Below are positions 5,314 through 61,330 of a DNA stretch of 64,000 nt, in pieces (position 1 is the stretch's first letter; each line of letters starts with the position of its first letter). The position numbers and the translations under genes are program-made. The notes under the pieces are model-generated. The model ran no database searches and had not been told where the DNA came from. It saw nothing but the letters and a program-made list of their open reading frames with translations. Source of the stretch: a virus; IMG/VR virus record IMGVR_UViG_3300038417_000475, positions 21,152 to 85,151 of that record; one strand, 5' to 3'.

Positions 5314-5328
5314 GTGGAAAGGAGCTTA

Positions 5329-17242: not shown

Positions 17243-17532
17243 TACACAACTCCCTTCCGGACTTTACTCAATTCGGCAGACAACTCCCTCCAATGCTGGT
17301 CCTCTTCCCCTGCTATGTGCTCCCACAATTCGGCCGTTCTGACATATCCCTTTACCCGGGCGCTTTTAGCTCTCTCGCGATATACTCTAGCGGCCAGGGT
17401 TTCCTCTTTCATACTCGTGAGAATACATTCCTCCAGTTGCAGGTCGACTTTATGGCCCTGCCGGTCAACCATGAGCTTACCAGACGGGTGACTAGGAGTG
17501 ATCTCACCTTTCCTTATCCTATAGATCTGCAT
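17242..17532 (-). CDS. Helical hypothetical protein, 96 aa
   Basis: From ATG 17532 behind AAGGAGG. A short strand-rich head (QIYRIRKGEI), then two long helices (LTSMKEETLAARVYRERAK and WEHIAGEEDQHWRELS) with Glu/His spacing that recalls half of a ferritin-like bundle. That resemblance is only suggestive. Confidence 0.6.
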   Translation of the reverse strand: MQIYRIRKGEITPSHPSGKLMVDRQGHKVDLQLEECILTSMKEETLAARVYRERAKSARVKGYVRTAELWEHIAGEEDQHWRELSAELSKVRKGVV

Positions 17533-17533
17533 A

Positions 17534-18219: not shown

Positions 18220-18297
18220 TGGTGGCGGGGGTTGGATTTGAACCAACGACCTCCGGGTTATGGGCCCGACGAGCTGACCTGGCTGCTCTACCCCGCT
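18220..18297 (-). tRNA. Initiator-type tRNA-Met(CAU)
   Basis: A complete cloverleaf with encoded CCA. Initiator hallmarks: a mismatched first pair (A1 against C72), A11:U24 in the D stem, and three consecutive G:C pairs in the anticodon stem around CAU. Loop base 33 reads C rather than the nearly universal U. T arm GTTGG-TTCAAAT-CCAAC. Length 78 with CCA. The promoter at 18304-18333 would transcribe it together with the GH16 gene. Confidence 0.9.
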
Positions 18298-18303: not shown

Positions 18304-18333
18304 AGATTAGTGTAACGCTCCTCACGTTGTCAA
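18304..18333 (-). promoter_or_regulatory. Promoter of the tRNA/GH16 unit
   Basis: TTGACA (18328-18333), 18-bp spacer beginning ACG, TAATCT (18304-18309). One of five minus-strand promoters sharing TTGACAACG or a close variant. Confidence 0.65.
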
Positions 18334-25705: not shown

Positions 25706-26485
25706 TCAGAACGATTGCATCTCGGTGTACCACTCGATGAGAGTGGCTTTGTCCTGCATCTGTTCCCACCTGGAGTCGTCGATCACCTTCGCCCCGACAG
25801 GGACGGACGGGATCACGGCTCCCATTGGCGTCTGGGTCGGTGCCAGCGCCGCCGCCTGGGCCTGCATCGACTTGGCCAGCACTTCTCTGAGCGGGCACTT
25901 GTTGATATAGAAGTCGATGGTCACCTTTTCGAAGTCTACGCCATCGACAAAGGGAGCCAGCACGAAGGCCGTCTGGCTGTATATCGCGTACAACTTCCAC
26001 AGCGGGCTTCTGTCCGGGCTGTCATCAGGCCTCTTGGCACCGAGGTACCTGTAGTACTGGTTGGTGATATCCGGGAAGATGGAGTTCGAGCCCACAGTGT
26101 ACACATACTGGCTCTTGGGCACATAGAGCTGGACGAAATAGTTGCCCTTATGGAGGCCAATGGCTATCTCGTACAGGATGCCAGTCTGGGCCGGATAAGC
26201 CTGCAGGGTGCCGGAGATGCCCGGCGGGGAAGCCATATTGGGGACATTCTGGTTTGACAGGTCGAGGAGCTGGTAGTCTGACCCCGGGAGCTTCAGAGCC
26301 ACCGGGAACTTCACCAGGACCGGATCTGCCGCAACCTCGAAGGTGCGACCAGAGGCCCAGGCGAAGCCGGCCTGGTTGGGGAACAACGATGAGAATTTGA
26401 ACCAGGAGCCTTTCTTGGCGAGGACATCCTCAGGGCGTACAGAAATGTCTGCTTTGCCGAATAACTTGGCAAGTTCTATGATCAT
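25706..26485 (-). CDS. Candidate major structural protein, 259 aa
   Basis: A beta-rich protein (LLDLSNQNVP, YEIAIGLHKGNYFVQLYVPK, YRYLGAKRP) with a polar Ala/Gln-rich helix near residues 205-220. It is followed by two tandem small genes and another protein of similar size (27181). Pairs of this kind can be capsid proteins, but there is no motif to prove it. RBS of the GGAGGA type. Confidence 0.5.
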   Translation of the reverse strand: MIIELAKLFGKADISVRPEDVLAKKGSWFKFSSLFPNQAGFAWASGRTFEVAADPVLVKFPVALKLPGSDYQLLDLSNQNVPNMASPPGISGTLQAYPAQTGILYEIAIGLHKGNYFVQLYVPKSQYVYTVGSNSIFPDITNQYYRYLGAKRPDDSPDRSPLWKLYAIYSQTAFVLAPFVDGVDFEKVTIDFYINKCPLREVLAKSMQAQAAALAPTQTPMGAVIPSVPVGAKVIDDSRWEQMQDKATLIEWYTEMQSF

Positions 26486-26582
26486 TTGCGTTCCTCCGTT
26501 TTCTTCTCTCTTCTCCCGAGAGTACGCTATGATGGGCGCTGCCCCGGCTTACCAGGGCAGCGCATTATTCTGTTGTGAAGGT

Positions 26583-26849
26583 TTACTCTGCGTCGACCAG
26601 CATGGCAATGTAGACCACATCACCAGTAGTCGCTGGCTCCCAGTCACTCCAGCTGCCAGAATAGACATTCTTCTCTACAGTTACCGTCAACACATTCCCG
26701 GATATGGACCATGAGGTTGCTAGCAGAGTGGAGGTGGTAAATTTGTTACAGATAGCTACTAGTGCAGACTTGATGTGCACAAACTCGCCAAACTCCTGGA
26801 CGACCTGTCCCCCAGCAGTTAGAGCAGTAGCTACTTTCATCATAAGCAT
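26583..26849 (-). CDS. Small beta protein, copy B of a tandem pair
   Basis: 88 residues sharing with the upstream neighbour the order F-T/V-Q-E-F-G-E-F-V, S-A-L-V, A-x-S-W-x-I-x-x-N-x-L-x-V-T-V and an A-T-T-x-D-V segment, ending in Asp-Ala/Gly-Glu. A single beta domain; a likely duplicated virion component. Confidence 0.6.
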   Translation of the reverse strand: MLMMKVATALTAGGQVVQEFGEFVHIKSALVAICNKFTTSTLLATSWSISGNVLTVTVEKNVYSGSWSDWEPATTGDVVYIAMLVDAE

Positions 26850-26858: not shown

Positions 26859-27158
26859 CTACTCCCCATCCACAGTCATAGTGCAAATACAGCCTTGCAC
26901 GTCGGACGTAGTTGCATTTACCCATGCTCCGGGACTTCCGATATTCTCCTTGTCCACGGTCACAACCAGGGTATTGTTGTTGGTAATAGCCCAAGAGCAT
27001 GCCACTTCATAGGAACTCTTGAAGGGATTGGCGATAGTCACCAACGCCGAAACGATGTTCACAAACTCGCCAAACTCTTGAGTAAAAGCTCCGCTACCGA
27101 GTCCAGTTTGCCCAGACGAAGAACCTAGAGTCACTGTCTTTTGTAACAGCATACTCAA
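26859..27158 (-). CDS. Small beta protein, copy A of a tandem pair
   Basis: 99 residues, paralogous to the gene at 26583 (shared QEFGEFV, SALV, TVDGE-like end). The extra N-terminal Gly/Ser-rich segment makes it slightly longer. Tandem duplication within the presumed structural cluster. Confidence 0.6.
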   Translation of the reverse strand: MSMLLQKTVTLGSSSGQTGLGSGAFTQEFGEFVNIVSALVTIANPFKSSYEVACSWAITNNNTLVVTVDKENIGSPGAWVNATTSDVQGCICTMTVDGE

Positions 27159-27180: not shown

Positions 27181-28032
27181 CTAGAGCGACTTATTCTGCG
27201 ACTGCGCGACTATGAGAGAGATCATCTCGAAGTCCGTGTCGTTGGTGGCCGTTGCCGGGCCATCAGGCATCACATCCACCAGCTGGGTCTTCAGAGGCGG
27301 GATGATGATGGGCTTCTCGAAGCGGGTGAACGAGACCTCCCTGCCGACGCCCCAGGTCTTCTTGTAGTTCCGGGAACAAGGCTGAGGAGGAGAAGCCGTG
27401 CCGCCCAGGGTGAACTGAATACCCTCGATCTTGGGGACCTGGATCTTCTCGATGGCTCCGAGATGGATCATGCCGGCATACTGCCACATGGTTTGCGACG
27501 GGATATAGCCGTTGGTTGGCTTGGTGCCACCAGTAAGACCAGTGGTCAACCAGTCAAACACACCCGCCGAAGTGCCACCATAAAGACCTAGAGAAGCTGT
27601 CTTCAGTGGGTTCAACAGCACCCCGCCGACATCCTTCGGCCTCATCGGCCAGATATCGAGCTGGGTGCCCTGGGCCAGGATGCCGCCGAATGAAGACTGG
27701 GTCTGCCACTTCACCGCTTCGATGGTCGCCAGGATGTTCAGGATCTCCTCGGCGATCATGATGGCAATGTCCTCCTGCTCCTTATTGCGGAAGATCATGT
27801 CCAGCTTGGAACAGACGGCGTTGACTTCATCAGGCGATAACCCCATCAGGGTGAGGGCGACTGCCGTTTTTCCGGAGTCGATCAGGGCGGCTGTCCAGTT
27901 AAAGGACCCGCCGTTCAGGAATGCCAGGGAGCCCAGCGGACTGTTGACTGTAGACCAGTCGAAAGGCTTGGGGCCCGGTGGCGCCTGCTGGATGAGATTG
28001 TTATTCTTGCAAAACGTGTAGATAAGTGCCAT
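27181..28032 (-). CDS. Candidate structural protein, 283 aa
   Basis: A helix (PDEVNAVCSKLDMIFRN) and helix-rich middle, flanked by aromatic beta segments and a C-terminal sheet (RFEKPIIIPPLKTQLVDVMP). Cytoplasmic, no TM. The strong RBS and position between duplicated small genes and amphipathic proteins suggest a virion component; an enzyme is not excluded. Confidence 0.5.
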   Translation of the reverse strand: MALIYTFCKNNNLIQQAPPGPKPFDWSTVNSPLGSLAFLNGGSFNWTAALIDSGKTAVALTLMGLSPDEVNAVCSKLDMIFRNKEQEDIAIMIAEEILNILATIEAVKWQTQSSFGGILAQGTQLDIWPMRPKDVGGVLLNPLKTASLGLYGGTSAGVFDWLTTGLTGGTKPTNGYIPSQTMWQYAGMIHLGAIEKIQVPKIEGIQFTLGGTASPPQPCSRNYKKTWGVGREVSFTRFEKPIIIPPLKTQLVDVMPDGPATATNDTDFEMISLIVAQSQNKSL

Positions 28033-28085: not shown

Positions 28086-28532
28086 CTAGAGACTGCCTCT
28101 TGCCCCCTGCATGGCCACAGACTGAGTGAGATGAGCCTGGGTGAAGGCACTCAGGCCGGGCACCGCAGTACGGAGACCTTCAGGCGCGGCGGCTATTAAC
28201 TCAGCAGGACTCTCTTTCACCTTGAGCCCATCTCCTATAGCCTTAGCTTTCTGTCCCGTCAGCTGATTCAGCTTCAGGTTGGCCGTGGATTCCCCCTTCG
28301 CGAGCAGAGAAGAAACCTTCGGCACTCCGGGGATATTCTCCTCAACCTTGGAGACGATAGGGGCTACCCTGGGCAAACGCAGGCCTGAAATACTTGCCGT
28401 ACCTCCCAGGTTAGGTACCTTGCCGGCGATCTTGGACATGATGCCCGATATACTGGGCGCTCCATTGGGCAGGATCGATTCAATCTTCTGCGGGATTACG
28501 ACGGGCTTTAGTAAAGCTGCTTGAACACCCAT
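28086..28532 (-). CDS. Amphipathic Pro/Ile/Val-rich protein with shared tail
   Basis: 148 residues. A succession of short I-P-x-x-P/I segments (VEENIPGVPKVSSLL) then a C-terminal tail EGLRTAVPGLSAFTQAHL followed by MQGARGSL, almost identical to the tail of the otherwise different protein at 31847. The tail may be a targeting or assembly signal. No TM helix, but the repeated amphipathic strands could lie on a membrane or particle. Confidence 0.6.
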   Translation of the reverse strand: MGVQAALLKPVVIPQKIESILPNGAPSISGIMSKIAGKVPNLGGTASISGLRLPRVAPIVSKVEENIPGVPKVSSLLAKGESTANLKLNQLTGQKAKAIGDGLKVKESPAELIAAAPEGLRTAVPGLSAFTQAHLTQSVAMQGARGSL

Positions 28533-28559
28533 GTGGATATGTCCTCCTTCTCAAAATAC

Positions 28560-28910
28560 TTAGGGCATCCATTTTTGGATATCGCCCTGGACTTTGCCGA
28601 TCGTCTCCTCAGCTGCGGTACTTACAGCATGACGGACGCCATCAACGCCATTCTTGGCATTACCGATGGCACCCTGCACCGCGTCTCTGGCTGTTGACAA
28701 GTCGGCGCCGGCCTGGCTCACCGCATCTGAGGCGGCTGACTTCGCTGAGCCGAGGACGCTTTCGGCAGTGCCTACCACAACATCTTTGGCCCCGTCAGCA
28801 ACACTGTCGACAGCACCGAGAAAGCCTTCGGCAACATCCTTCGCGCCTTCAGCAAGTCCGTCAGCAACCTTGAGAAGATCCGGTAATGTAGGTCCCTTTG
28901 CCATATCCAC
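28560..28910 (-). CDS. Apolipoprotein/LEA-like 11-mer helix protein
   Basis: 116 residues of continuous amphipathic helix with an 11-residue repeat (A-K-D-V-x-x-G-x-x-x-x: GAKDVAEGFLGAVDSVADG and relatives). The pattern is that of apolipoproteins, phasins and perilipins, which coat lipid surfaces. With the lipid-synthesis genes upstream this suggests a lipid- or membrane-coating role. Coiled-coil alternatives exist. Confidence 0.65.
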   Translation of the reverse strand: MDMAKGPTLPDLLKVADGLAEGAKDVAEGFLGAVDSVADGAKDVVVGTAESVLGSAKSAASDAVSQAGADLSTARDAVQGAIGNAKNGVDGVRHAVSTAAEETIGKVQGDIQKWMP

Positions 28911-28948
28911 ACCTCCTTCGGTGATATTTGGGGGAAGCAGCTAAAGCA

Positions 28949-28995
28949 AAAGGGTTGGGGACCCAACAGCTTTAGCTGTTCCCCAACCCTTTTTT
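28949..28995 (-). terminator. Strong hairpin upstream of the 28910 gene
   Basis: A 13-bp perfect stem (AAAGGGTTGGGGA and its complement) with an inner AACAGCTAAAGCTGTT palindrome. On the minus strand it is followed by CCCTTTTGCTTT, on the plus strand by six T. It sits between the promoter at 29020-29049 and the gene it would serve, so it may work as an attenuator as well as end the subtilase transcript. Confidence 0.7.
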
Positions 28996-29019
28996 ATTCG
29001 GTTATTGAATTACGGTATT

Positions 29020-29049
29020 AGACTATTAGAACGCTTCCTACGTTGTCAA
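29020..29049 (-). promoter_or_regulatory. Minus-strand promoter, TTGACAACG class
   Basis: TTGACA (29044-29049), spacer 18 bp starting ACGTAGG, TAGTCT (29020-29025). Reads into the hairpin at 28949-28995. Confidence 0.6.
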
Positions 29050-29069
29050 TAGGGTATGCTCAATTTACG

Positions 29070-31388
29070 TTACATTTGATTGTCGATATACGTTTTCAGA
29101 AGCGAATAATTTATAAGTCCCCAACCGTAATCATTGCTCTTGGCTGAGGCATAATCGCCATATATCGACATCGCAGCCTTGATATGCTCCGTGGTCAGGA
29201 CCTTCCCCTTTTTACGGGCATACTGGATCGCCAGGGCTGTCACGTATGCGGCATGGGGTGTGGCCATTGACGTGCCGGAAATCGCGGCAAGCTGCGGAGG
29301 TCCGTCTCCAAGCTGCATGGCTGCGATATATCCGTTGGAAGTCGAAAGGATATCCACACCCGGAGCCACCACGTCGGGCTTGATGAATCCGGCTTTCGTG
29401 GGGCCTCGAGAGGAGAAGCTGGCTATGTTTCCGTGGATATCCACAGCTCCGACAGTCAACGCATCCGGTGAACAGCCGGGGCCTCCTACAGTCATCTGGC
29501 CAGGGCCGCTGTTGCCGGCAGCGATACAACAGATGATCCCAAGTTGCGTCATGGCGGTGATGGCCTGGCATTCCGGGTCATTCAGGTAATCATCGGGTTC
29601 GTCCCCTCCCAAAGACATCGAGATGATATCGGCTTTCCAGTGCAGAGCGTTCATCAGGCCGGCCAGTATCCAGCTTGCCATCCCTACGCCGATCCCGCCG
29701 CCCAGGACTTTGAACGGACGAACCTCTGCTCCCGGAGCTCCGCCCTTGAGCAACGCTCCTCGCGCAGGCCCGGCGAGAACCTTAAAAGGCCTCCCGCCGA
29801 TGCAGGTGTTACACCAGGTATTGTGGATAAAAGCCATACCTTGTTTACCAGCAAGGTAATAAGGGCTTTCTGGGTCAAGGGTGAAATCATAGAGGAACCC
29901 CTTGAAGTCTATCTCCTCAACAGATTTGGGCAATAGGTAAGGGGCTGTTCTGTGAACTTCAGTGTAGAGAGGCCTTTTCAGCTTCAGGTAGGGAATCAAC
30001 GCCTCGGTCATCCGGGTAAATCCTGCATCTACAGCAGATACTTGGTAACAAACCTTCTTCCCTTTACCAGAAGGTTTCTGTTTTGTAAACCGTCCTCCAA
30101 AACCTAGAACACCGAACAGGCTAACGATTTGCTGTGCCAGTTGCCTTGAAGTAGTGCTAACCCTGCATCTAGCACGATCAGGGTCGAAATGACCATCACC
30201 ATCTATGATCCCGGCCAGCACTGCCAGGAGTACATTCGTGGGTTGTTTTAAGAGCCTCTCCGGTATGGTATTCTCTTTCCGTCTTAGACCTAGCGCAATG
30301 AACTCTCTTTTCAATCCTGATACCTCAATGCTTCTACTCTTCTTGCGTTTTTTGGGAGTCCAAGCACAATAATGATAGCCGAGCTGCTTCAGATATGTCT
30401 CAATAGCAGGCCCTTCGTCATGGTGTAGAGAAAGGTTCACGGCACTGTGATGGAAACAGCCCTCAGCTATGAACAGCCCTGCCAAGTAGGCCAGATCTGT
30501 ATTCACAGTCTGTACGAAAGGCAGATTGATGATCTGCTCATTCGTAGCCAGACCGTAATTTCTATGGGACTGAATCAGGTCAGAAGCTCTCACATCCCTG
30601 TATCTTTTGCACCGTGGCTCATAGATTTTGAATGGATGCCACGGAGTTGTCACAAATTCAGATGTCCCGGCTTTCACTTTTATCAATTTGCCGTCGAAAG
30701 GAATCTTGTGTACAGCCAAGACCCTTACAGGTTTTCTGAAGCCGATCGTCCATGTGGGATCTACGGGTATTTTGGTAAATCCCAGTTCACTCTGGACCTC
30801 TGGAACCTTCAAATTCTCATAGAGGTCTTGGAATCGCACAAGGCCACAGAACGTAGTATAGACAAAGGCTTCTCCCTCAATGCAACCATGGCCGACCTCA
30901 TCGAACATAAAAGGCTGGCCGGGTACCGATGATTTACCATGTCCGAAGTATCCCTGGACCGCGAAATCCAAGGCTGTACCGGTATCGAGCACTGCAACTT
31001 TTACACCTTTGCCGGTGATACCGTCCGCGGCAGCTACGTCCGCTCCCACCATCTGCCCGCTCACCGATGTCGGGATCCTCTCGTGCGAGGAGTCGGAGGC
31101 GGCATAAGCCATGGCTTTCGCCGGCCCCGTGATGGGGTTGGAGAGGAAGAGGTTGATGAACTTGGAAAACTTCTGATCTACCGGCATGGTGATGCGGATG
31201 GCCCGTATCTGCTCCGGTTTCACGTTGAGCACATAAGGCACAGCTTCTATCGCCGCTACCTGGTTAGGCTGGATATCCACCTTCACAAAATTGAAATCGA
31301 GAGGAGCAGGGAATATACCCATCTTGGTCAGAGAAATGTTGACCTCGGCAAGATGAATAGGGTCTACCTGGACAAGGTATTTAGCCAT
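29070..31388 (-). CDS. Subtilisin-like serine protease with intein
   Basis: A 772-residue precursor of an S8 subtilase. Catalytic Asp135 in VAVLDTG, His167 in EVGHG, Asn626 in AAGNSGPG (oxyanion hole) and Ser707 in GTSMATPH. An N-terminal inhibitor-like domain (about 1-70, strand-rich, VNISL, VPYVLNV) may be a propeptide. A 355-residue intein splits the His motif between Gly168 and Thr524. Excision would give a 417-residue protease with an intact GHGT motif. No signal peptide, so it may act inside the cell or on virion proteins (a maturation protease). Promoter not seen. Confidence 0.9.
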   Translation of the reverse strand: MAKYLVQVDPIHLAEVNISLTKMGIFPAPLDFNFVKVDIQPNQVAAIEAVPYVLNVKPEQIRAIRITMPVDQKFSKFINLFLSNPITGPAKAMAYAASDSSHERIPTSVSGQMVGADVAAADGITGKGVKVAVLDTGTALDFAVQGYFGHGKSSVPGQPFMFDEVGHGCIEGEAFVYTTFCGLVRFQDLYENLKVPEVQSELGFTKIPVDPTWTIGFRKPVRVLAVHKIPFDGKLIKVKAGTSEFVTTPWHPFKIYEPRCKRYRDVRASDLIQSHRNYGLATNEQIINLPFVQTVNTDLAYLAGLFIAEGCFHHSAVNLSLHHDEGPAIETYLKQLGYHYCAWTPKKRKKSRSIEVSGLKREFIALGLRRKENTIPERLLKQPTNVLLAVLAGIIDGDGHFDPDRARCRVSTTSRQLAQQIVSLFGVLGFGGRFTKQKPSGKGKKVCYQVSAVDAGFTRMTEALIPYLKLKRPLYTEVHRTAPYLLPKSVEEIDFKGFLYDFTLDPESPYYLAGKQGMAFIHNTWCNTCIGGRPFKVLAGPARGALLKGGAPGAEVRPFKVLGGGIGVGMASWILAGLMNALHWKADIISMSLGGDEPDDYLNDPECQAITAMTQLGIICCIAAGNSGPGQMTVGGPGCSPDALTVGAVDIHGNIASFSSRGPTKAGFIKPDVVAPGVDILSTSNGYIAAMQLGDGPPQLAAISGTSMATPHAAYVTALAIQYARKKGKVLTTEHIKAAMSIYGDYASAKSNDYGWGLINYSLLKTYIDNQM
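29820..30884 (-). other. LAGLIDADG intein in the subtilase active site
   Basis: Residues 169-523 of the protease precursor. N-terminal Cys169 (CIEGEAFVYT), block-B-like TTPWH around 246-251, two LAGLIDADG motifs (LAGLFIAEG at 302-310 and LAGIIDGDG at 391-399), C-terminal GMAFIHN ending in His-Asn523, and +1 Thr. All hallmarks needed for splicing and homing are visible. It is inserted between the Gly and Thr of the catalytic HGT. Confidence 0.9.
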
Positions 31389-31395
31389 CTCTACC

Positions 31396-31791
31396 TCACT
31401 CTGTAGGGATATTCAAAGCGCCCTCAATACGTCCCAACCTGGTCGAGATATCCTGCAGGGGCTCTGCCAGTTCCTTTTGAGTCACGCAATTCTCAAGGTG
31501 AGCGGTTATCCGTGTATCTGTCACCGCTAGCGCCCCCTTGATTTCGGCCAGGTCCTTTATCATCCGGCCGCCTATGTCCACTAAACTTTTGTCCACTTCC
31601 GCCTTGTGATTTTCATGCGCTCTCCACAGTTTATCGAGAGAATCACCCTGGTCCTTCTGTACCTTCCCCTGGGCTTTCTGCGTATCCGTAATCTCCTGAT
31701 ACCGTCTCCCGAATGTCCATGCCGTGGTCAGGGCACCGGCAGCAACTCCTCCTACGCTGGAGATCGTATACCACAATGCGTTTAAGTCCAT
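31396..31791 (-). CDS. Membrane-anchored coiled-coil protein, 131 aa
   Basis: One N-terminal TM segment (ALWYTISSVGGVAAGALTTA) followed by about 100 residues of heptad-rich coiled coil, including a Cys near 106. A single-pass layout like phage spanin or holin-related proteins, or a scaffold tethered to a membrane. No lysis enzyme nearby. Confidence 0.6.
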   Translation of the reverse strand: MDLNALWYTISSVGGVAAGALTTAWTFGRRYQEITDTQKAQGKVQKDQGDSLDKLWRAHENHKAEVDKSLVDIGGRMIKDLAEIKGALAVTDTRITAHLENCVTQKELAEPLQDISTRLGRIEGALNIPTE

Positions 31792-31846
31792 ATCTCATCA
31801 ACTTCACACCCACCCCCAGGCCTCACCCACAGGTTGACGGCCTCCT

Positions 31847-32239
31847 TTATAAGCTACCTCTTGCCCCTTGCATATCTACCGACTGAGTCAGATGCGTTGT
31901 GGTGAAGGCGCTCAAGCCCGGCACCGCAGTACGCAGACCTTCAGGCACCGACTCTATCAGCTCGGGCGCGGCCTCTGTTACCTCAGGGGTTTGTATCTCA
32001 GGGGCTGCCGCAGCAACATTTGCTCGTATTTCGGAAATATCATTGATCATGCCGGGAGTCGGCAACCGCTTTTTCGGCATCTTCCGGATATCGGTTATCA
32101 TGCTGGTCTTTCCAACGGTAGGCAGATCAGGAAGCTGACCGGCCACACGGAGCAGTAATGGGGACACCCGAGGAAGAGCAGTGCCCTGCTCAACTTTTGA
32201 AATCCGAGAGGCAAATGTCTTTAACGGATTCATCTTCAT
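31847..32239 (-). CDS. Pro/Ile-rich protein with the shared C-terminal tail
   Basis: 130 residues; the tail PEGLRTAVPGLSAFTTTHL followed by MQGARGSL is nearly identical to that of the protein at 28086. The body differs (RVAGQLPDLPTVGKT). The shared 35-residue ending on two dissimilar bodies is the notable feature. Confidence 0.6.
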   Translation of the reverse strand: MKMNPLKTFASRISKVEQGTALPRVSPLLLRVAGQLPDLPTVGKTSMITDIRKMPKKRLPTPGMINDISEIRANVAAAAPEIQTPEVTEAAPELIESVPEGLRTAVPGLSAFTTTHLTQSVDMQGARGSL

Positions 32240-32244
32240 CCCCC

Positions 32245-33237
32245 CTAGAGTTTAGGTATCCTGTCCAATATGGGAGCCACCTTATTGATCTCAGTTTCAA
32301 GTTTTGACACTCTCGCCTTCAGGTCACTCACCGTACTCTCATCAGCTGTCAATTTGTCCTGGAGCGTAGCAATATTCTGGTTCGCGGCAGCCAGGGCCGC
32401 GTTCGCTTTATCCGTAGAAGCCTGGTTGGCATCATCGATTCTCTTGTTCAGTGCTGCCGTAGTCAGGGGGAATTCGTTCTCGAGGTCACCGATTCTGCCA
32501 TCTGAGTTATTTATCTTGTCTGCCATCTTGGCATCAAGATCACTGATGTTCTGGTTGGCTGCCGCCAGAGCTGCATTGGCCTTGTCGGTGGCATCTGACT
32601 TGGCTTGGGCTAGTGCACTATCTGTATAATCTGTCCACAAGGGTCTTTCAGCTACAGAGGTGCTCTCAATCTGTGCTTTTATATTGGCCCAGTCATCTCC
32701 AGTCCTGTTCTTGATGTTGTCTAGCCTTGTCATAACCCCGTTAAGGTCATCTCGCGCACTATCTATCTGACCCTGCAGGGCATCTCTGGCTGTACCCATA
32801 TTCTGGTTGGCGGCAGCTAGCGCCTGATTGGACTTCAATGTGGCCCAATCCGAGGCAATGGACACTACGCCCTGGTAGTCATCTCCGACTCTGTTTTTGA
32901 GGTCGTTCAGTCTTTGGACCGCAGCGGCTGCTTTAGCCTGTGCATCAGCTATTTGAGCCCGCGAATCAGATGCCCATTGCAGTAACTGGTTAATTTTCGT
33001 GTCTACTGCACCGTTTAGATTATCGAAAGTGGTGTTGAGGTCATTCAGCTTGTTCGCCGCAGTAAGGAGCGCATCAGCCACGTCATACAGGGCTGTATCG
33101 ATGTCGTTGGCCGGGCCACCCAGAGAGGATATAACATTGGGCCAATGCCCGAGCTGTGCATAAATACTGTCTGCGACAGCCTTTACTTTTAGTCCAGCCT
33201 CCCCTATTTGGTCTTTGACATTGAGAATGTCTTGCAT
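32245..33237 (-). CDS. Long coiled-coil protein, 330 aa
   Basis: Almost all heptad helix. Internal repeats: ALAAANQN recurs four times, at about 60-70-residue spacing, with neighbouring DKANAALAAANQNI. Final segment (VSDLKARVSKLETEINKV) is a classic trimeric coil. It is probably a fibre or scaffold in the amphipathic gene cluster, comparable to phage tail-fibre or tape-like coiled coils, but lacks a recognisable tip domain. Confidence 0.65.
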   Translation of the reverse strand: MQDILNVKDQIGEAGLKVKAVADSIYAQLGHWPNVISSLGGPANDIDTALYDVADALLTAANKLNDLNTTFDNLNGAVDTKINQLLQWASDSRAQIADAQAKAAAAVQRLNDLKNRVGDDYQGVVSIASDWATLKSNQALAAANQNMGTARDALQGQIDSARDDLNGVMTRLDNIKNRTGDDWANIKAQIESTSVAERPLWTDYTDSALAQAKSDATDKANAALAAANQNISDLDAKMADKINNSDGRIGDLENEFPLTTAALNKRIDDANQASTDKANAALAAANQNIATLQDKLTADESTVSDLKARVSKLETEINKVAPILDRIPKL

Positions 33238-33699
33238 CTACTTCCTTCTGATCGTCTGCAATACCGCTATGGAACTCAAAGGGCTTTTCTTGTCCCACCC
33301 CATAAAGGTCTTGAATTCCTCAGGGGTGAACGAATCGTTGATCTTCCCCAGGTAGGTATCGCCAACCCTCTGGCCAATAATGGGGCCGACCACAGGCACG
33401 AATTCAAGCAGGTCAGCCAGGTCCCGGCCTATGGAGGCTTTGAGCGCGGCGCTGTGCCCCGGGGTCATCGAAGGGGCTTTGAGCTGGGGCAGACGCAGTT
33501 CGGGCAGAGTTACACTCCCGAATGGCGTCCCCATCTCGGCCTCCGGAAGATACGGCGCTTTGTCCATAACAGCGTTGATCGCCTTGATAGGCGGAGAGCT
33601 GTCAAGTTTCCGGGAGACCTTCAGCGCCGCCCTCCCTAAGGTGCTCTCAAACGGGAGTTTGCTCGGTATCGGAGGGGGTGGTATCCGTATCGCACCCAT
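33238..33699 (-). CDS. Amphipathic Pro-rich protein, 153 aa
   Basis: Starts GAIRIPPPPIPSKLPFES, then P/L-rich (LPELRLPQLKAPS) and a helix with IGRDLADLLEFVPVVGPIIG that may insert into membrane. Belongs by composition to the P-x-I/V amphipathic set (28086, 31847, 33709). No family recognised. Confidence 0.55.
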   Translation of the reverse strand: MGAIRIPPPPIPSKLPFESTLGRAALKVSRKLDSSPPIKAINAVMDKAPYLPEAEMGTPFGSVTLPELRLPQLKAPSMTPGHSAALKASIGRDLADLLEFVPVVGPIIGQRVGDTYLGKINDSFTPEEFKTFMGWDKKSPLSSIAVLQTIRRK

Positions 33700-33708
33700 T
33701 CTCCCCCC

Positions 33709-33858
33709 TTATTTGGGTATTACGTCCGAGATCCGGGGCAGGAATTTGGGAAGCACAGACTCAACAGACTGGAAAATCTTGGGAACGCCGGGGATAGCAG
33801 GGAGCTTCGTCATCATTCGGACCAGACCCGTGGGCATAGCAACTTGAGCAGACATAAC
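33709..33858 (-). CDS. 49-aa amphipathic protein
   Basis: From ATG 33858 with RBS GGGAGGTG. Composition of the neighbours: LPAIPGVPKIFQSVESVL. An in-frame start at 33903 would overlap the promoter at 33916-33945 more closely, so the shorter form is preferred. Role unknown. Confidence 0.5.
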   Translation of the reverse strand, partial: VMSAQVAMPTGLVRMMTKLPAIPGVPKIFQSVESVLPKFLPRISDVIPK

Positions 33859-33915
33859 AACACCTCCCGCACATTTTCTCCAAAAAGAGATGCCGAAACC
33901 CAAAAAGGTAATTCA

Positions 33916-33945
33916 AAACTAACGGAATCGGAGAAACGTTGTCAA
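33916..33945 (-). promoter_or_regulatory. Minus-strand promoter, TTGACAACG class
   Basis: TTGACA (33940-33945), 18-bp spacer, TAGTTT (33916-33921). It would drive the genes from 33858 down. Confidence 0.6.
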
Positions 33946-33955
33946 GAGGTTGTGC

Positions 33956-34255
33956 TTATTTTTGGTCTTTGCTGACTTCCCGCAGGAGTTCGATAATCTC
34001 AGGAGGAAGGTTCTCCGACAATTTCTTGGCGTCCGCCAGCATTTGACTGACCGCCCTTATTTTCTCTATCGGCATCGAGCTGATCAGCCTCACCAGCTCC
34101 AGGCCGTTGTCTAAAGACTTGGGGTCTCCGGAGGTCAGGGCCTTGGCTTTGTCCAGAATCTCGCCGATCTGTTTGAGCTTCCTCTGGTCTATCGCTGCCA
34201 GGTCATGGACCAGCTGCTGCGCCTTGCCAACTCCATCAAAAATCTTCGGCATCAT
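33956..34255 (-). CDS. Helical amphipathic protein, 99 aa
   Basis: Predicted all-helical (AQQLVHDLAAIDQRKLKQIG, IPIEKIRAVSQMLADAKKL). A soluble or surface-active bundle. It sits between the SDR gene and the amphipathic cluster. No family recognised. Confidence 0.55.
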   Translation of the reverse strand: MMPKIFDGVGKAQQLVHDLAAIDQRKLKQIGEILDKAKALTSGDPKSLDNGLELVRLISSMPIEKIRAVSQMLADAKKLSENLPPEIIELLREVSKDQK

Positions 34256-34265: not shown

Positions 34266-35207
34266 CTACTCTATGACGCTCTGCGCTACGGAGCCCGTAA
34301 TGAATTTATGGTCGATCTCCGGGCAGGCCATCAGGTCACTCGGGAAATCATTGCCTTCCAGGTAGGGCAGGAACGGCTCTGCCAGCCTGTGGAATACAGC
34401 TTCGATCGCCGACTTCTTAAAATCCTCAGGGTGGACCTGGATATCGACATACATGGCCTCTCCCATCCAGTTGCAGACCTCCTGGATGGTGGGAGGCTTG
34501 GGGTTTGTCAGCCAGTATTTGCCGGCGAGCTGCTGTTTGACGATGTAATCCGCCACCGCGTCGACAGGGACCAGGTTGATATGCCCGTCCGGATTGCCTT
34601 TGACCCTGAACTGCGGTGTCAGAACAGGCAAACGCAACGTACCTTCGATGGCCCGCCTCACAATCTCAGCCCTTTCATGGACTGCGCAGATTCCCCGGGC
34701 AAACTGGTAGAGGGCGCCCATCGAAGGCTTGATGATATTCATGCAGGGGATGATCACCCCCGGCTTGAAGACAGCCTTGAAGAGCCAGGTCTGGGCATCG
34801 ACCGCCTTCTCCGCCGCTTTCTTGGAGATCTCGTAGGAATTGCGCCCTATGGTGTACGCCGTCCCAACGTAGAAAAGTTGCGATACGTTATAGCGTTTGC
34901 AGAAGTCGATTACATGAATAGTGCCATCGTAATTCGTCTTCCAGACCCGGTCTTCGTGCTTCGTTCCCAGGTTGATATCCGCCGCCAGGTGGTAAAGAGC
35001 GTCAAATCTGCGGACGTTAGCCTCGTCCTCTCTGACTCCCAGCAGATTCTCCACAATATCGCCATGGATGATATCCATATCCGGAAAGAGCTTCTTCGTT
35101 TTATCCACGTCGCGGGCTATGAGAGTCACGAGATCACCGCGCTCGATGAGTCGCGGTACCACTTCCTGCCCGAGCTGCCCCGATGCGCCTGTCACCAGAA
35201 TCTTCAT
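34266..35207 (-). CDS. Extended-SDR NAD(P)-dependent reductase/epimerase
   Basis: Rossmann motif TGASGQLGQEV (G-x-x-G-x-x-G, residues about 6-16), HLAAD with the extended-SDR NAG-like position, and the catalytic Y-x-x-x-K in NSYEISKKAAEK. About 313 residues; an ATG at 35210 is the alternative start, RBS GGAGG. Substrate cannot be told. Within this cluster a reduction or epimerisation of a lipid headgroup, sugar or polyketide product is plausible. Confidence 0.85.
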   Translation of the reverse strand: MKILVTGASGQLGQEVVPRLIERGDLVTLIARDVDKTKKLFPDMDIIHGDIVENLLGVREDEANVRRFDALYHLAADINLGTKHEDRVWKTNYDGTIHVIDFCKRYNVSQLFYVGTAYTIGRNSYEISKKAAEKAVDAQTWLFKAVFKPGVIIPCMNIIKPSMGALYQFARGICAVHERAEIVRRAIEGTLRLPVLTPQFRVKGNPDGHINLVPVDAVADYIVKQQLAGKYWLTNPKPPTIQEVCNWMGEAMYVDIQVHPEDFKKSAIEAVFHRLAEPFLPYLEGNDFPSDLMACPEIDHKFITGSVAQSVIE

Positions 35208-35228
35208 CATTACCTCCACAGTTCCTTA

Positions 35229-35934: not shown

Positions 35935-37083
35935 TCAAGCCCAGTAGAGCAAAATTCCATACGTTTTGAAGCCGGCGCCCATTGTGAGCACCAGGCCCCA
36001 GTCGCCCGGCTGGGCCTGCTCTTTCGCCAGGCGCCCGATTGAAGCAATGGTAGCAGAACTCTGGTTACCCTGCTGCCTCAGGATTTGCCTCGAGTAAGCC
36101 AGCTTCTCCTCCGGGATCTTCAGGCGATCGCGGATATTGTCCAGGACTTTGACCCCGCCCGGGTGAATAATAAGGTGTTTGATGTCGCGCAGCGTCATCC
36201 CCGGGACCTGTTCCAGGATTCTGTTTACCACCCTCTCGACCAGCACAGGTGCCACCTTCGGCACATCCTTGTCCAGCTTCACCTTCAGCCGGCCGTCCAC
36301 CCAGTCAAAGCCAAGATAGTCAATATAGCGGCGGTCGAACTCTTCGGCAAAAGCCCAGATCCAGGGGTGCTTCGGGTTGTCATCCTGCCCGATCAAACAG
36401 GCACAGGCCCCGTCGCTGAAAATGGCATTGGCCACCGTATTCTCCAGGTCTTTCTCCGGAGCCGGGTAGAACGTGGCGGTGCAGATCTCCGCCGTTATTA
36501 CCAGCGCGGGGTAGCCCGTCTGCATGAAATGGTCATGGGCCCTGCGGATAGCCGGAGCTCCGCCAACGCACCCGCCTCCGATCATATCGGTATGCTCAAT
36601 ATCAGAGGGCAGCTTCAGCAGCATCGAATAAAAGTAACTCAGAGAGGGGCAGAGCAGCCGGGGTTGCGTTGTGGTAGCAAAGGTGATTGAGCCGATGTCC
36701 TTACGGATCTCTAAACCTTCGATGCACTGTAAGGCGGCTTCCAGCCCCAGGTTTACAGCACCCGCCTCATATTCCTGGCACATCTGCTCAAAGGTCATAT
36801 TACGCAGCTTGCTGGGATGAATCCAGCACGGCCGCCGGTCGATCCCGGAATTCTTGAAGATATTCCAGACCCGTTGAGACGTGTAGCCCAGGGCATCATA
36901 TGCTTCCTTCTGGGTCACAAATGTCTTGGGGACTGCGGTACCCAGTGAGATGATCTTGGCCCTCTTCGGCTTCCGATAATAGGCCGCCGAGCGTTGGGGG
37001 GCTGCCTCTTCCTGCCGTTTAATAGTTTCAGGAGTCCGGGTATCCGGAAAGCCGTTCAGGTCTGGTCTGGTTGCAATCATCAT
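35935..37083 (-). CDS. Type III polyketide synthase (chalcone-synthase-like)
   Basis: 382 residues, the usual size of a thiolase-fold type III PKS or related KAS III. Catalytic triad visible: Cys172 in GGGCVGG, His307 in IIHPGG, Asn340 in GNQSS; the C-terminal G-A-G-F loop follows. His-Pro-Gly-Gly is the chalcone-synthase form. Such enzymes condense an acyl-CoA with malonyl-CoA to give alkyl pyrones, resorcinols or similar. The 42-residue N-terminal extension is basic and probably disordered. Surrounded by prenyl-lipid genes. Confidence 0.9.
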   Translation of the reverse strand: MMIATRPDLNGFPDTRTPETIKRQEEAAPQRSAAYYRKPKRAKIISLGTAVPKTFVTQKEAYDALGYTSQRVWNIFKNSGIDRRPCWIHPSKLRNMTFEQMCQEYEAGAVNLGLEAALQCIEGLEIRKDIGSITFATTTQPRLLCPSLSYFYSMLLKLPSDIEHTDMIGGGCVGGAPAIRRAHDHFMQTGYPALVITAEICTATFYPAPEKDLENTVANAIFSDGACACLIGQDDNPKHPWIWAFAEEFDRRYIDYLGFDWVDGRLKVKLDKDVPKVAPVLVERVVNRILEQVPGMTLRDIKHLIIHPGGVKVLDNIRDRLKIPEEKLAYSRQILRQQGNQSSATIASIGRLAKEQAQPGDWGLVLTMGAGFKTYGILLYWA

Positions 37084-37309: not shown

Positions 37310-38272
37310 TCATTTCGCCACCGCCTGGCTGATGACCAGTGCCAGCATCCACAGGAACATCACCCCCATTGCCGCCATAATCGCCTTGTTGTTGAATTTC
37401 AGCTCAGCCTGCTTGACGTCCGGCTTTGTTTCGCAGACCGCCAGGATGCAGTAGATAAACGGCGGCATGAGGGCCAGAGTAGAGAGCGTCAGCGGCGCTA
37501 GGTACCCGCCGATGACAAGGGCTATCTGGATGATGTACGCAAAGCCCAGCAGTGTACACGTAAAGAGCACCGGGTTGACTCCCGTCTTCCAGGCCAGGGC
37601 GCCCATGTTGCGGAGTCCGGAACTCCAGTTGACATCCGCATCGAACGCCTGGTCGATGAATTCCGCGCCAAACCCAAACGTCCAACCGAAAACTAGCCCT
37701 GCCATAAAAGCCGGGCCGAAATTGTGGAACACAAATGTGCTGGAGGCCGCAGCTCCAAGACAACATGCCAATGGCCCAAAGCCCAAACCCAACACAGTCT
37801 CGCAGGCATAATGTAATTTACCGAGGGAATAAAACGGAGAACAGAGAGCTGATAGCCCCCATGGCAGCCAAATCCAAGCTGAGGCATAGTGAGCAATGAT
37901 CGCAGCCACTACCGCAGACGCAGCCAACCAGCAGAGGGCATTGACAAGAACTTCAGTTGGCTTCATCAAGCCAGTCACAATGACCTGGTTGCCGCTGGTG
38001 TAGGACTTCGGCTTCGAGGTATCATCGCCGATATGGTCAATCCCTGTAGTATAGTCAAAGAATGTATTGAGTGAGTGTTCCCCAGCCATCAATAGACCAG
38101 AGCAGACGATTGCTAACGCAATCAGCCAGCCCGCAGCGCCGGTGAGAATGCAACCGAGGGCCACGGCACATCCGGCTGCTGGCAATGCAAAGGGTCTACT
38201 TAATATGACTATGTGGATTCTTGCTCTTTGTAGTAACGAAAGTCCTGATTTTGGCAGTAACTTTTGGCTCAT
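37310..38272 (-). CDS. UbiA-family prenyltransferase
   Basis: 320 residues, about eight to nine TM helices. First Asp motif NTFFDYTTGID (N-x-x-x-D-x-x-x-x-D, residues about 68-78) and second motif near residue 205 (EFIDQAFDADVNWSS). UbiA enzymes transfer prenyl chains to aromatic or other acceptors in the membrane. ATG 38272 gives the usual ILSRPFALP entry, though the first 26 residues overlap the Vsr-like gene by 77 bp. With the type III PKS it suggests prenylation of a polyketide-derived ring. Confidence 0.88.
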   Translation of the reverse strand: MSQKLLPKSGLSLLQRARIHIVILSRPFALPAAGCAVALGCILTGAAGWLIALAIVCSGLLMAGEHSLNTFFDYTTGIDHIGDDTSKPKSYTSGNQVIVTGLMKPTEVLVNALCWLAASAVVAAIIAHYASAWIWLPWGLSALCSPFYSLGKLHYACETVLGLGFGPLACCLGAAASSTFVFHNFGPAFMAGLVFGWTFGFGAEFIDQAFDADVNWSSGLRNMGALAWKTGVNPVLFTCTLLGFAYIIQIALVIGGYLAPLTLSTLALMPPFIYCILAVCETKPDVKQAELKFNNKAIMAAMGVMFLWMLALVISQAVAK

Positions 38273-38993
38273 CCTTCAGTTCCTCCTCCCAAATAACGAG
38301 GCATTTGATTCCAAGAGCATTATAAGCCATGATTCTACCGAGCTCTGTTCGTCTCCACTTTGGATTGTTCCCTTCGTGCCAATAGCGTCCGAAGGCTTCA
38401 ATCACCATTTTGCGGCCATTTTTATTGAAGAAATCAGGGATCATCCCATCAATAATAACCTTGCCATCACCAGTGTATTCCCATTCGCCTGGATAGTCCC
38501 TCTCCAGCAGTACCTCCAGGTTCTTCTCCAGCTTCGTTGGCTTAATCAATGCCCTATTTGATTCAGCCCTTAATTGTCGATATGCCCTAGAACTTGTCCA
38601 GCACTTCGAGGAACAATATTCACCTGTCCCCTTAGTAGTCATAGCTGACCTTGGAACTCTGAAATCCCTCCCACAATTCAGGCAAATGCGGGCTACCCTC
38701 CTATTTCTATGATCTGAGCATTTCCGGGAGCAGAATTTCCGGGTACGCCGCAACCCCGGTTCCTTCACTGGGAGGGTTTTGCCACATTTAGCACAAGAGA
38801 TGATTCTGGGTTCTTTCTTAACCCAATTCTTGCTGAAATTCTTCACAATGGTCTGATAATCTTGAGGAAGAGAGCCAAACCAAACTAGGCGGCAGGGATT
38901 CGAACAAAAGTTGTGCTCACGTACTAGCCAGGAAGCTTTCTGAAATTGCTTGCCACACGTAGTGCAGGTTACCTCACGCATTACAGTTGTCAT
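38196..38993 (-). CDS. Zinc-ribbon Vsr/EDxHD-like homing nuclease
   Basis: 265 residues. Three Cys-x-x-Cys/Cys modules in tandem (CTTC...FCSNPC, CAKC...FCSRKC, CLNC...YCSSKC) followed by a Vsr-like PD-(D/E)xK-type nuclease domain (PDFFNKNGRKMVIEAFGRYW then H, about 205-245). Zinc fingers would bind DNA, the nuclease cut it; such free-standing enzymes home into phage genes. It lies within the lipid gene set and its C-terminus overlaps the UbiA start, which suggests insertion at that spot. Confidence 0.75.
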   Translation of the reverse strand: MTTVMREVTCTTCGKQFQKASWLVREHNFCSNPCRLVWFGSLPQDYQTIVKNFSKNWVKKEPRIISCAKCGKTLPVKEPGLRRTRKFCSRKCSDHRNRRVARICLNCGRDFRVPRSAMTTKGTGEYCSSKCWTSSRAYRQLRAESNRALIKPTKLEKNLEVLLERDYPGEWEYTGDGKVIIDGMIPDFFNKNGRKMVIEAFGRYWHEGNNPKWRRTELGRIMAYNALGIKCLVIWEEELKDEPKVTAKIRTFVTTKSKNPHSHIK

Positions 38994-39640
38994 ATTAGCT
39001 TACATAGTGCCATTACCAAAGCACTCGCAAGGGGTATGGAGAAATTATCATCGATATATCTTGTAGTTTTCGTGAATCTTTCTGCAAGCACAGCAGTAAT
39101 GGCCCCGACAGCGCCAATCCAGTAGGGTTGGATGAAGTATGCGAGCAAGAGACAGGTTACCACCATACCCACGCTGCCCCACAATCCTTTGACTTCTCTC
39201 CCATAGACACGGCTACGGATGAGCCCCGTTATCGCATCCCCTCCCCCCATGAACGTCAGAGGAACTATTGCCAACCAGGGTTCGTGGTATATCCCCCAGA
39301 GAACGCCGATGAGAACAGCTCCGGTGGCTGGGAAATGTATTTCGGCTAGAGCATCTAATCTCCCGGAGCCACCCACACCACGGAAAAGACCAGGGCGGAA
39401 AACCCTGGCATAAAGTAACAGGATTGTGAATCCGGCTGTCAGAATAAATGGCCACCAGAAATTATGGAACAGGAAAGGCATCAGAAGAAATCCAAGACAA
39501 CCCCCCAGGTGACCTATTTTCCTGCTGATATACTGCGGCACTTTATAGTCATAGAAGAGATTGGCCAGATACAAGGACGTGAGAACTCCGAGGAGTATCA
39601 GGGCAACGTATGGCAATTCGTGTACGTAGCTCATTCTCAT
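38990..39640 (-). CDS. Phytol/dolichol kinase-like CDP-transferase-fold protein
   Basis: 216 residues, about seven TM helices, of the CTP-dependent polyprenol kinase group (VTE5/SEC59/phytol kinase). Features are RKIGHLGG near residue 40 and MGGGDAITGLIRSRVYGR then KGLWGSVGM (about 130-160), matching the family G-D-A-x-A/T..K..E/W-G-S. It would phosphorylate a prenol for activation. ATG 39640 overlaps the previous stop (ATGA). Downstream of the SCP2-like gene and upstream of UbiA. Confidence 0.75.
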   Translation of the reverse strand: MRMSYVHELPYVALILLGVLTSLYLANLFYDYKVPQYISRKIGHLGGCLGFLLMPFLFHNFWWPFILTAGFTILLLYARVFRPGLFRGVGGSGRLDALAEIHFPATGAVLIGVLWGIYHEPWLAIVPLTFMGGGDAITGLIRSRVYGREVKGLWGSVGMVVTCLLLAYFIQPYWIGAVGAITAVLAERFTKTTRYIDDNFSIPLASALVMALCKLI

Positions 39641-40035
39641 CTCCCTAAATGCAGCATCTTTTTGATTTCCTTGAGCCAGTCTTCTATAGCCTGCATCAGC
39701 TCTTCGGTATCGTAGAGTTCCTCCGTACCGCTGACCATGATAAGCCGGTGCGCCTTTGCCGCCCTCGGGGTTATCACACCGTCAACAAGGTCGAAGAACG
39801 TATCTTCGTGCATCAGGATCTTGTTCCGCACTTCACACGGTTCTTCGAGAAGGTGCAGCTTTCCCTCGTAGTATTTGAGGTAGAAAAGGCCTCCTTCTTC
39901 CCCCAGTACTTTGAGTTCAGCGGCCCGCCCCTCCGCGGACTTCAGCTTTTCTTTGATCTCTGCCGGCAGCCGCTGCATCAGGGAAGCCTGCCGTTTTTCC
40001 GCTCGCGCGAGTAGATCTGCAACAAGGCCAGCCAT
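39637..40035 (-). CDS. SCP2-like lipid-carrier candidate
   Basis: 132 residues with a strand, helix and terminal-helix order resembling sterol-carrier-protein 2: a body strand LHLLEE, then VDGVITPRAAKAHRLIMVSG, the usual position for the G-x-x-x-P-x-x-A-x-x-x-G/R segment, and a final helix. The match is weak, so a different lipid or peptide carrier is possible. Strong RBS AAGGAGG. First gene after the Mrp-like ATPase. Confidence 0.4.
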   Translation of the reverse strand: MAGLVADLLARAEKRQASLMQRLPAEIKEKLKSAEGRAAELKVLGEEGGLFYLKYYEGKLHLLEEPCEVRNKILMHEDTFFDLVDGVITPRAAKAHRLIMVSGTEELYDTEELMQAIEDWLKEIKKMLHLGR

Positions 40036-40045: not shown

Positions 40046-41041
40046 TTAAGTGAGTTTGGCTATAACTCTCCCGCCCATTTTAGTTATTCCCCTCTTGACC
40101 CTCTGCCCCCTTGATTCTCTCCGGAGTGTAACCGGCTTGGCTGTCAAAATATCCTGCGCCAGTTTTGTAAAATACGGTTTCAATGCGTTCATGTCCGGGG
40201 TCTGGGGAATGGACATCAGAAACGGGATCCCGCAATCCCTGGCCTCTTTTCCCATAGCTAGCTTGGGGGAAAGCAGCTGGTGGCTCACCCTCCCGCAGCT
40301 CGGGCACAAATAGCCGTCCATCATCGAGAGAAGACCGATTATGGGCACTTCCTCGAGCCTCAAAAAGTCGACGGTTCTCCTCATGCCGAGTGCCGAGATT
40401 TCTGACGGTTGGGAGACTATAATCACACCTAGCAGTCCACTTAGGTGCTCAAAAAACGAGAAAACTTCGGATGCAGTTGATGGCGGCATATCCGCCAGAA
40501 GAATCTCCGTGTCATCGGGCCACTGCACCTGTTCCGATAAGAGTTGACGGATGATTGAAGCCCTGTTGGAAACATACGTTTGTTTCAGGTACCAGGCCTG
40601 ATGGTTATACACATCGGCTTCCTGAACGATCTCGAAGGAAGAATGTACGTCGGGATTCTTCTCGAGAAACTCTTTGCATTTCTGTACGATGTCCTGATTG
40701 GCCTTCAGCCAGTTCTGCACCTTCTCCATCACTTCATCGGGGATCTCAACGGTGCCCGTCTCACCCTTCCACATGACGGAATTAGCTTCGCCAAAATGAG
40801 CACAAATCGAGAACAGATAATATCCGTTGATTTCCGGAGGAATGAGCTTGCGTTGTTCCGTTGATGTTTTGATGCGTGGGGGTTCCGAGAGCCCCAACGC
40901 CTTGTGAAGTGTACTGCCGCTCAGGTCGATATCCAGAAATCCGACCCTGTGCCCCATATCGCGTAATGCCAGCCCCAGAAGTGCCGTAACGGTGCTTTTC
41001 CCGACCCCGCCCTTCTGGCTCCAGACCGCGATTTTTTTCAC
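40046..41041 (-). CDS. Mrp/ParA-type P-loop ATPase
   Basis: About 331 residues from GTG 41041. Deviant Walker A KGGVGKST (residues about 11-18), Walker B ILLADMPP and a C-terminal CPSC pair (CPSCGRVSHQLL) as in Mrp/NBP35-type Fe-S or regulatory ATPases. An insertion of about 90 helical residues follows the first domain. The promoter at 41049-41078 predicts transcription to begin at the GTG, so the mRNA would be leaderless. It may partition DNA, carry Fe-S, or switch on the lipid operon. Confidence 0.8.
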   Translation of the reverse strand: MKKIAVWSQKGGVGKSTVTALLGLALRDMGHRVGFLDIDLSGSTLHKALGLSEPPRIKTSTEQRKLIPPEINGYYLFSICAHFGEANSVMWKGETGTVEIPDEVMEKVQNWLKANQDIVQKCKEFLEKNPDVHSSFEIVQEADVYNHQAWYLKQTYVSNRASIIRQLLSEQVQWPDDTEILLADMPPSTASEVFSFFEHLSGLLGVIIVSQPSEISALGMRRTVDFLRLEEVPIIGLLSMMDGYLCPSCGRVSHQLLSPKLAMGKEARDCGIPFLMSIPQTPDMNALKPYFTKLAQDILTAKPVTLRRESRGQRVKRGITKMGGRVIAKLT

Positions 41042-41048: not shown

Positions 41049-41078
41049 ATTATATGCGCACGTTTCTTACGTTGTAAA
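41049..41078 (-). promoter_or_regulatory. Promoter of the Mrp/lipid operon, leaderless
   Basis: TTTACA (41073-41078), 18-bp spacer starting ACG, TATAAT (41049-41054). Transcription would start at or one base before the GTG of the ATPase (41041). Confidence 0.75.
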
Positions 41079-61328: not shown

Positions 61329-61330
61329 AG

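Follow-up and report, generated by a model that had tools for sequence, protein, structure and literature searches.

In phages with an internal membrane, extended proteins tie the shell to the membrane, and some of these phages encode amphipathic or extended membrane–capsid linkers. The tailless membrane viruses PRD1, PM2, P23-77 and SH1, with genome records of 10–31 kb, have small minor-protein and spike genes near their shell genes and a P-loop ATPase, and have no tailed-type terminase or portal. According to a review, phages have no inherent lipid-biosynthesis machinery, and membrane-containing phages take their lipids from the host (PMC6356626). Here, we analyse a 64,000-nucleotide stretch (the window; positions 21,152–85,151) of the 85,151-base IMG/VR virus record IMGVR_UViG_3300038417_000475, in which a cluster of orphan genes at 28086–34255 follows a lipid operon. 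Taking its candidate shell genes as such, the genome resembles the four viruses in these features of gene content; it differs from them in its size of 85 kb and in its lipid-synthesis genes, and their capsid and ATPase sequences have no detectable match in it. The original prediction described six proteins of the cluster (28086, 28560, 31847, 33238, 33709 and 33956; genes are named by their first window position) as lipid-surface-like and proposed a lipid-containing virion or compartment. All six open reading frames (ORFs) exist on the minus strand, and most are preceded by Shine-Dalgarno-like sequences. Our tentative reading is that the cluster encodes minor virion and assembly components of a particle without a tail, which most likely contains lipid; this reading is possible but well short of established.

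The genome is circular and complete, at about 85,024 bp. The first and last 127 bases of the record are identical (L001:1-127, where L001 is the left part of the record), and a near-identical independent contig, IMGVR_UViG_3300018015_000425, spans window positions 60415–64000 (L015:1-3586) and continues across the junction into the start of the record. Because the circle is closed, the absence of genes from it is informative. Selected Pfam families were searched against the whole record and unannotated ORFs against Pfam, while PHROG scans covered ORFs of at least about 70 aa, one scan being read as its best 25 families and the unannotated ORFs being rescanned. For TerL, PF03237 and PF04466 have no match in the whole record, PF03354 has none in a second record, and no PHROG matches; portal (PF04860) and HK97 capsid (PF05065) likewise have no match in the whole record and no PHROG match among the scanned ORFs. 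The only head or tail PHROG matches among the ORFs scanned are weak tape-measure matches of the helical protein 28560. A conventional tail or scaffold, the outcome that would have contradicted the original prediction, is therefore less likely.

A shared promoter links the cluster to the lipid operon. The motif TTKACAACGT-N14-TANNNT has four matches in the window, where shuffled sequences give an expectation of zero, and one more in L001; all five copies lie on the coding strand, 5′ of genes. It is sigma70-like, with an extended −35 element (TTGACAACGT) and a fixed spacing of 18 nt from TTGACA to the −10 element. On the minus strand, one copy (TTTACAACGT-N14-TATAAT, 41049–41078) precedes the ParA/lipid operon, one (TTGACAACGT-N14-TAGTTT, 33916–33945) precedes genes 33709–29070, and one (TTGACAACGT-N14-TAGTCT, 29020–29049) precedes genes 28560–26583; the remaining copies are at 18304–18333 (minus strand) and L001:6232-6261 (plus strand). 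A strong stem-loop lies in the leader between the promoter and 28560 (28948–28993, minus strand; minimum free energy −30.8 kcal/mol, z −4.8, matched by 0 of 200 shuffles), and another follows 26583 (26534–26566, minus strand; −28.1 kcal/mol over a 71-nt stretch, z −4.4), so 28560, 28086, 27181, 26859 and 26583 are probably one transcription unit.

The first protein of this unit, 28560 (28560–28904, minus strand; 114 aa, net negative, start most likely ATG 28904), is by its residue pattern an 11/3 amphipathic helix. It is built of nine in-register 11-residue units without gaps, in which columns 0, 4, 7 and 8 are mostly Ala, Val, Leu or Ile and the others mostly Gly, Asp, Ser or Lys. The whole-protein hydrophobic moment at 98 degrees (11/3) is 0.285, a value that none of 1000 shuffles reaches, confirming the 11-residue repeat noted in the original prediction. 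In its nine gap-free units with one hydrophobic face, 28560 resembles the 11-residue-repeat helices of apolipoproteins, perilipins and late embryogenesis abundant (LEA) proteins, but it is acidic, has an Ala/Val core and matches none of these families. Specifically, it has no match to the apolipoprotein family PF01442, to which the neighbouring 32245 scores 21.2 bits against a cut-off of 90.

Amphipathicity holds for only part of the cluster. The mean 18-residue moment gives z values of 4.8 for 28560, 4.6 for 33956, 3.8 for 28086, 2.0 for 33709, 1.6 for 31847 and 0.4 for 33238. With another scale and proline-broken windows removed, 33956 ranks 2nd among 95 ORFs, 28560 5th, 33238 8th, 31847 29th and 28086 81st. 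Because the ranks shift in this way, the predicted amphipathic character stands for 28560 and for 33956 (33956–34255, minus strand; 99 aa, strongly amphipathic and helical, with an apparent internal repeat), but is not robust for 28086, 31847 and 33238. Two neighbours outside the original prediction also rank high: 31396 (31396–31791, minus strand; 131 aa), 3rd, has a mildly hydrophobic N-terminus followed by amphipathic helices and no transmembrane segment over threshold, and 32245 (32245–33237, minus strand; 330 aa), 7th, is an Ala-rich coiled coil with three KANAALAAANQNI-like repeats. Consistent with the claim that standard transmembrane helices are missing, no 19-residue segment in any of the six proteins reaches transmembrane hydropathy (33709, from a separate scan, has a maximum of 1.08).

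The proteins 28086 (28086–28532; 148 aa), 31847 (31847–32239; 130 aa), 33238 (33238–33699; 153 aa, proline-rich, with the hydrophobic middle LLEFVPVVGPIIG) and 33709 (33709–33855; 48 aa), all on the minus strand, are better called proline-punctuated than amphipathic. Short segments ending in Ile/Leu/Val-Pro recur in them, with 4.7, 4.6, 4.6 and 12.5 [ILV]P dipeptides per 100 aa, respectively, against 1.34 genome-wide, an enrichment of 3.5–9 times that bears out the Pro/Ile/Val segments noted in the original prediction. Compared with shuffles of their own composition, the excess is clear for 33709 (p 0.0005) and weak for 28086 (0.017) and 31847 (0.047), while 33238 has no more than its composition gives (p 0.12). 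The start of 33709 is most likely ATG 33855, which follows the ribosome site GGGAGGTG, because the annotated TTG falls between the promoter and that site.

Two members of this group, 28086 and 31847, are paralogues, 43–48% identical over the aligned part, and flank the intein-interrupted subtilase gene 29070–31388. At their C-termini, from PEGLRTAVPGLSAFT to QGARGSL, 29 of 32 residues are identical, while the last 102 bases of DNA are 79% identical; the shared C-terminal peptide therefore looks conserved by selection. This peptide, on bodies that have diverged, suggests that both proteins may dock to one partner.

The S8-family subtilase (29070–31388, minus strand) matches PF00082 at 7.8e-37 and carries a LAGLIDADG intein (PF14528 and PF05204, with a weak match to TIGR01445). 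Reading the junction directly places the intein exactly at the catalytic-His motif, GHG|T. Because the motif is split, the subtilase should work only after splicing, making a splice-dependent protease switch possible.

Downstream of 28086 lie the candidates for the shell. The 283-aa orphan 27181 (27181–28032, minus strand), which has no family match, is a candidate major virion protein, and the 259-aa orphan 25706 (25706–26485, minus strand) is a second. In an exploratory comparison whose criteria we chose ourselves, rare codons are fewer in 27181 than in any other of 86 genes, and 25706 has, likewise as an exploratory result, the highest third-position GC content (GC3) among the gene tables listed; the codon use of both fits high expression. 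Between them are two orphans, 26859 (26859–27158, minus strand; 99 aa) and 26583 (26583–26849, minus strand; 88 aa), which are paralogues with 51% identity. The adjacent proteins 19933 (PF09099 at 4.9e-4, below cut-off) and 24355 (DUF1565) resemble spike or fibre proteins. Distant from the cluster, the P-loop ATPase 5314 (5314–6168, plus strand; motif GSRRSGKT) is a candidate packaging ATPase. It matches PF13173 (AAA_14) at 2.7e-4, below cut-off, and is the best window protein against the ATPase profile of the Thermus phages P23-77 and IN93, with a probability of 43% that covers the 25-residue P-loop only.

The lipid genes said to lie upstream are partly confirmed. 35935 (35935–37083, minus strand) is, on domain and motif evidence, a type III polyketide synthase (PKS) of the chalcone-synthase superfamily: PF00195 and PF02797 score 62.9 and 56.2 bits against a cut-off of 27, and the Cys-His-Asn triad, read directly, is intact (GGGCVGG, IIHPGG and GNQSSA). 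Its match in the PDB is PKS11 (5e-27), and DpgA matches at 7.6e-45, below the equivalog cut-off. It is thus a clear member of the superfamily of the bacterial enzymes PKS11 and DpgA, but differs from them in sitting in a phage-like genome beside UbiA-like and reductase genes. The reductase 34266 (34266–35219, minus strand) is an extended short-chain dehydrogenase/reductase (SDR) similar to 3-beta-hydroxysteroid dehydrogenases, with PF01073 and PF01370 over cut-off and HpnA/OleD-like matches in NCBIfam below cut-offs. For 37310 (37310–38272, minus strand), which has six transmembrane segments over threshold, a UbiA-type prenyltransferase is probable; it has no match to Pfam UbiA (PF01040), but NCBIfam PRK12884 matches residues 25–310, nearly the full length, at E 7.7e-4, below cut-off. 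Together with two Asp-rich motifs read directly (NTFFDYTTGID and DQAFDAD), this weak match makes it likely that 37310 works like a UbiA prenyltransferase.

Two further genes of the operon have a looser connection to lipids. The 216-aa hydrophobic protein 38990 (38990–39640, minus strand), with two segments over the transmembrane threshold, is dolichol-kinase-like by eye only, with no Pfam or NCBIfam match and nothing meaningful in the PDB, and the 132-aa 39637 (39637–40035, minus strand) weakly resembles SCP2 lipid-transfer proteins (PF02036, E 0.013, below cut-off). The first gene, 40046 (40046–41041, minus strand; probable start GTG 41041), encodes a ParA/Mrp-family ATPase (PF10609, 2.8e-40; NCBIfam MrpORP, 1.2e-37, below cut-off; PHROG ParA-like partition protein, 3.3e-17). 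As a side observation, its GTG lies about 7 nt past the TATAAT −10 box, and the transcript is possibly leaderless. Against 50,697 phage records, tblastn gives two partial matches for 35935, both at E 4e-3, and no match for the UbiA-like protein.

If the cluster does belong to a non-tailed virion, its parts could be assigned as follows. 27181, 25706 or both would be the main shell proteins; 28086 and 31847 would bind one common partner through the C-terminus that they share, while their proline-punctuated N-terminal parts stretch along a surface, in the manner of the extended linker and tape-measure proteins known from internal-membrane phages. Helices of 28560 and 33956 would either layer on the membrane or pack into bundles, and the subtilase would mature the assembly once its intein is spliced out. 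The lipid operon, whose promoter is of the cluster's type, would supply a special lipid, an isoprenoid or polyketide made by the PKS, the UbiA-like enzyme and the reductase for the particle or the infected membrane. The original idea of a lipid-containing virion or compartment is in this respect coherent and partly supported: the promoter that the lipid operon has in common with the two halves of the cluster, and the closed circle without tailed-phage matches, strengthen it somewhat, while contact with lipid finds no support and the hypothesis stays short of demonstrated.

Several observations weigh against a lipid-carrying, non-tailed virion. The capsids and ATPases of P23-77, IN93, SH1, HHIV-2, PRD1 and PM2 give no significant match by hhalign or shuffled Smith-Waterman comparison, and neither a jelly-roll capsid nor an A32/FtsK-type packaging ATPase is demonstrable against these six viruses. 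In particular, no window protein matches the double jelly-rolls PRD1 P3 or PM2 P2 above noise, and a 26-residue stretch common to 25706 and VP17 (a single jelly-roll of the P23-77/SH1 type) was rejected as noise, with a z of only 1.3. Single-sequence AlphaFold2 models of 27181 and 25706 are unusable (predicted local distance difference test scores of 33 and 29). To our knowledge, tailless membrane phages have genomes of 10–30 kb, which makes 85 kb unusual. Furthermore, the promoter is found beyond the cluster as well; its other two copies precede an initiator-type tRNA unit and a papain-like peptidase unit, and co-regulation is therefore weak evidence of joint function. Finally, 28560 is acidic, and its hydrophobic columns also coincide exactly with a, d, e and h, the core positions of a hendecad coiled coil. 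By a HeliQuest-type lipid-binding criterion (an 18-residue window with D above 0.68), all 92 windows of 28560 fall below the threshold, and some windows of 33956, 28086, 31847 and 33238 exceed it, mainly through charge. A coat on a lipid surface, as the original prediction had it, is thus not borne out for 28560; because the hendecad columns match and no window reaches the lipid-binding score, its sequence does not decide between a lipid surface and a helix bundle.

These last properties would suit a soluble scaffold of coiled coils or helical bundles, with linker proteins and no lipid contact, the lipid genes being separate metabolic cargo with an effect on the lipids of the host's membrane or surface, for instance as a defence against superinfection. 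Like the hendecad segments of tape-measure proteins and the ZorA tail, 28560 has hydrophobic residues in this register, here with an Ala/Val core, and it gives weak PDB matches to ZorA and tape-measure chains (E 0.1–0.4) in addition to its PHROG matches; it differs from them in being only about 114 aa long, stand-alone and next to shell-candidate genes. 32245 is a plain coiled coil, and ParA/Mrp and endonuclease-like genes are interspersed with the lipid genes. However, the proline-punctuated proteins are not coiled coils, and the lipid operon and the cluster share a promoter type; we consider this account somewhat doubtful. A conventional tape-measure role for 28560 or 32245 was rejected, the matches being weak and of low complexity and the proteins short.

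It is unlikely that this is a tailed phage with terminase, portal, capsid and tail genes too divergent for profiles to reach, the cluster being its scaffold, internal virion proteins or tail shaft. Most phages of about 85 kb are tailed, many of the replication genes here are similar to tailed-phage genes, tail fibres are a possible identity for 19933 and 24355, and a portal or capsid may have diverged extremely from the profiles. Nevertheless, TerL, normally easily detected, matches no profile in a complete circle, and apart from the 330-aa 32245 there is no long tape-measure-like gene. A plasmid or phage-plasmid is decidedly unlikely; in that case the cluster would coat a polyketide–isoprenoid lipid body inside the cell or stabilise cells in the manner of phasins or LEA proteins, and ParA would serve maintenance. 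The ParA/Mrp ATPase, the lack of a recognisable capsid, the lipid enzymes and the likeness of the 28560 repeat to LEA and lipid-body proteins would all fit. Against this, Pfam scans of the unannotated ORFs find no relaxase or conjugation gene, IMG/VR classes the record as viral, spike-like genes lie downstream, and phage-type genes are many (Ku-like, DnaB, RusA, endonuclease VII and integrase).

Taken further, the favoured non-tailed reading would make this a bacterial virus with a large, 85-kb circular genome, from a lineage not yet described, with a lipid pathway of its own (type III PKS, UbiA-like enzyme and reductase) and a lipid layer, in the virion or in an intracellular compartment, organised by the proline-punctuated and 11-residue-repeat orphans. 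We regard this full picture as quite unlikely. Because phages are held to have no inherent lipid-biosynthesis machinery (PMC6356626), a virus-encoded pathway for virion lipid would be new; if true, it would change views on how virion membranes are selected and give the non-tailed phages a lineage with a large genome. On a more cautious view, structure prediction from deep alignments has a clear target here: a complete 85-kb circle that carries a structural module not described before and a defined set of promoters.

The locus has few detectable relatives. Among 50,697 phage records no relative of the cluster was found, and a scan of 2.9 million IMG/VR contigs, which reaches close relatives only, adds none beyond one near-identical record. 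Viral contigs queried with 27181, 5314, 25706 and the 28086/31847 and 26859/26583 pairs return one near-identical record only, and those queried with 35935, 46800 and 37310 return no match; a genome contig collection contains no matching relatives, and tblastn against phages and plasmids leaves 31847, the shell candidates and the P-loop ATPase without a match.

The replication and repair genes are phage-like and bacterial, including a Ku-like protein, an ATP-dependent ligase, a DnaN-like clamp, a DnaB N-terminal domain, a UvrD-like helicase, a RusA-like resolvase and an integrase. An archaeal host, which the A1 initiator tRNA and the genes resembling UbiA and Mrp had brought into consideration, was rejected in view of the sigma70-like promoters and the bacterial DnaN, DnaB and Ku genes. 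The tRNA itself (18220–18297, minus strand) is an initiator-type tRNA-Met with three G:C pairs by the anticodon loop, an A1xC72 mismatch and an encoded CCA. At 216–2423 (plus strand), a Ku homologue and, after it, an ATP-dependent DNA ligase form a phage-borne pair for end joining. A Cys-rich protein (CGKCRWW...GWC; L001:9764-11245, plus strand) is, like the subtilase, split by a probable LAGLIDADG intein. Two nearby minus-strand proteins (15329–15817 and 16028–16270) are paralogous along about 49 residues, CG[IV]HKGM[ST]RG.LV...M..CVP, with 45% identity, and 17242–17547 (minus strand) encodes a small rubrerythrin/ferritin-like protein, assigned by eye to the Pfam Rubrerythrin match found among the unannotated ORFs.

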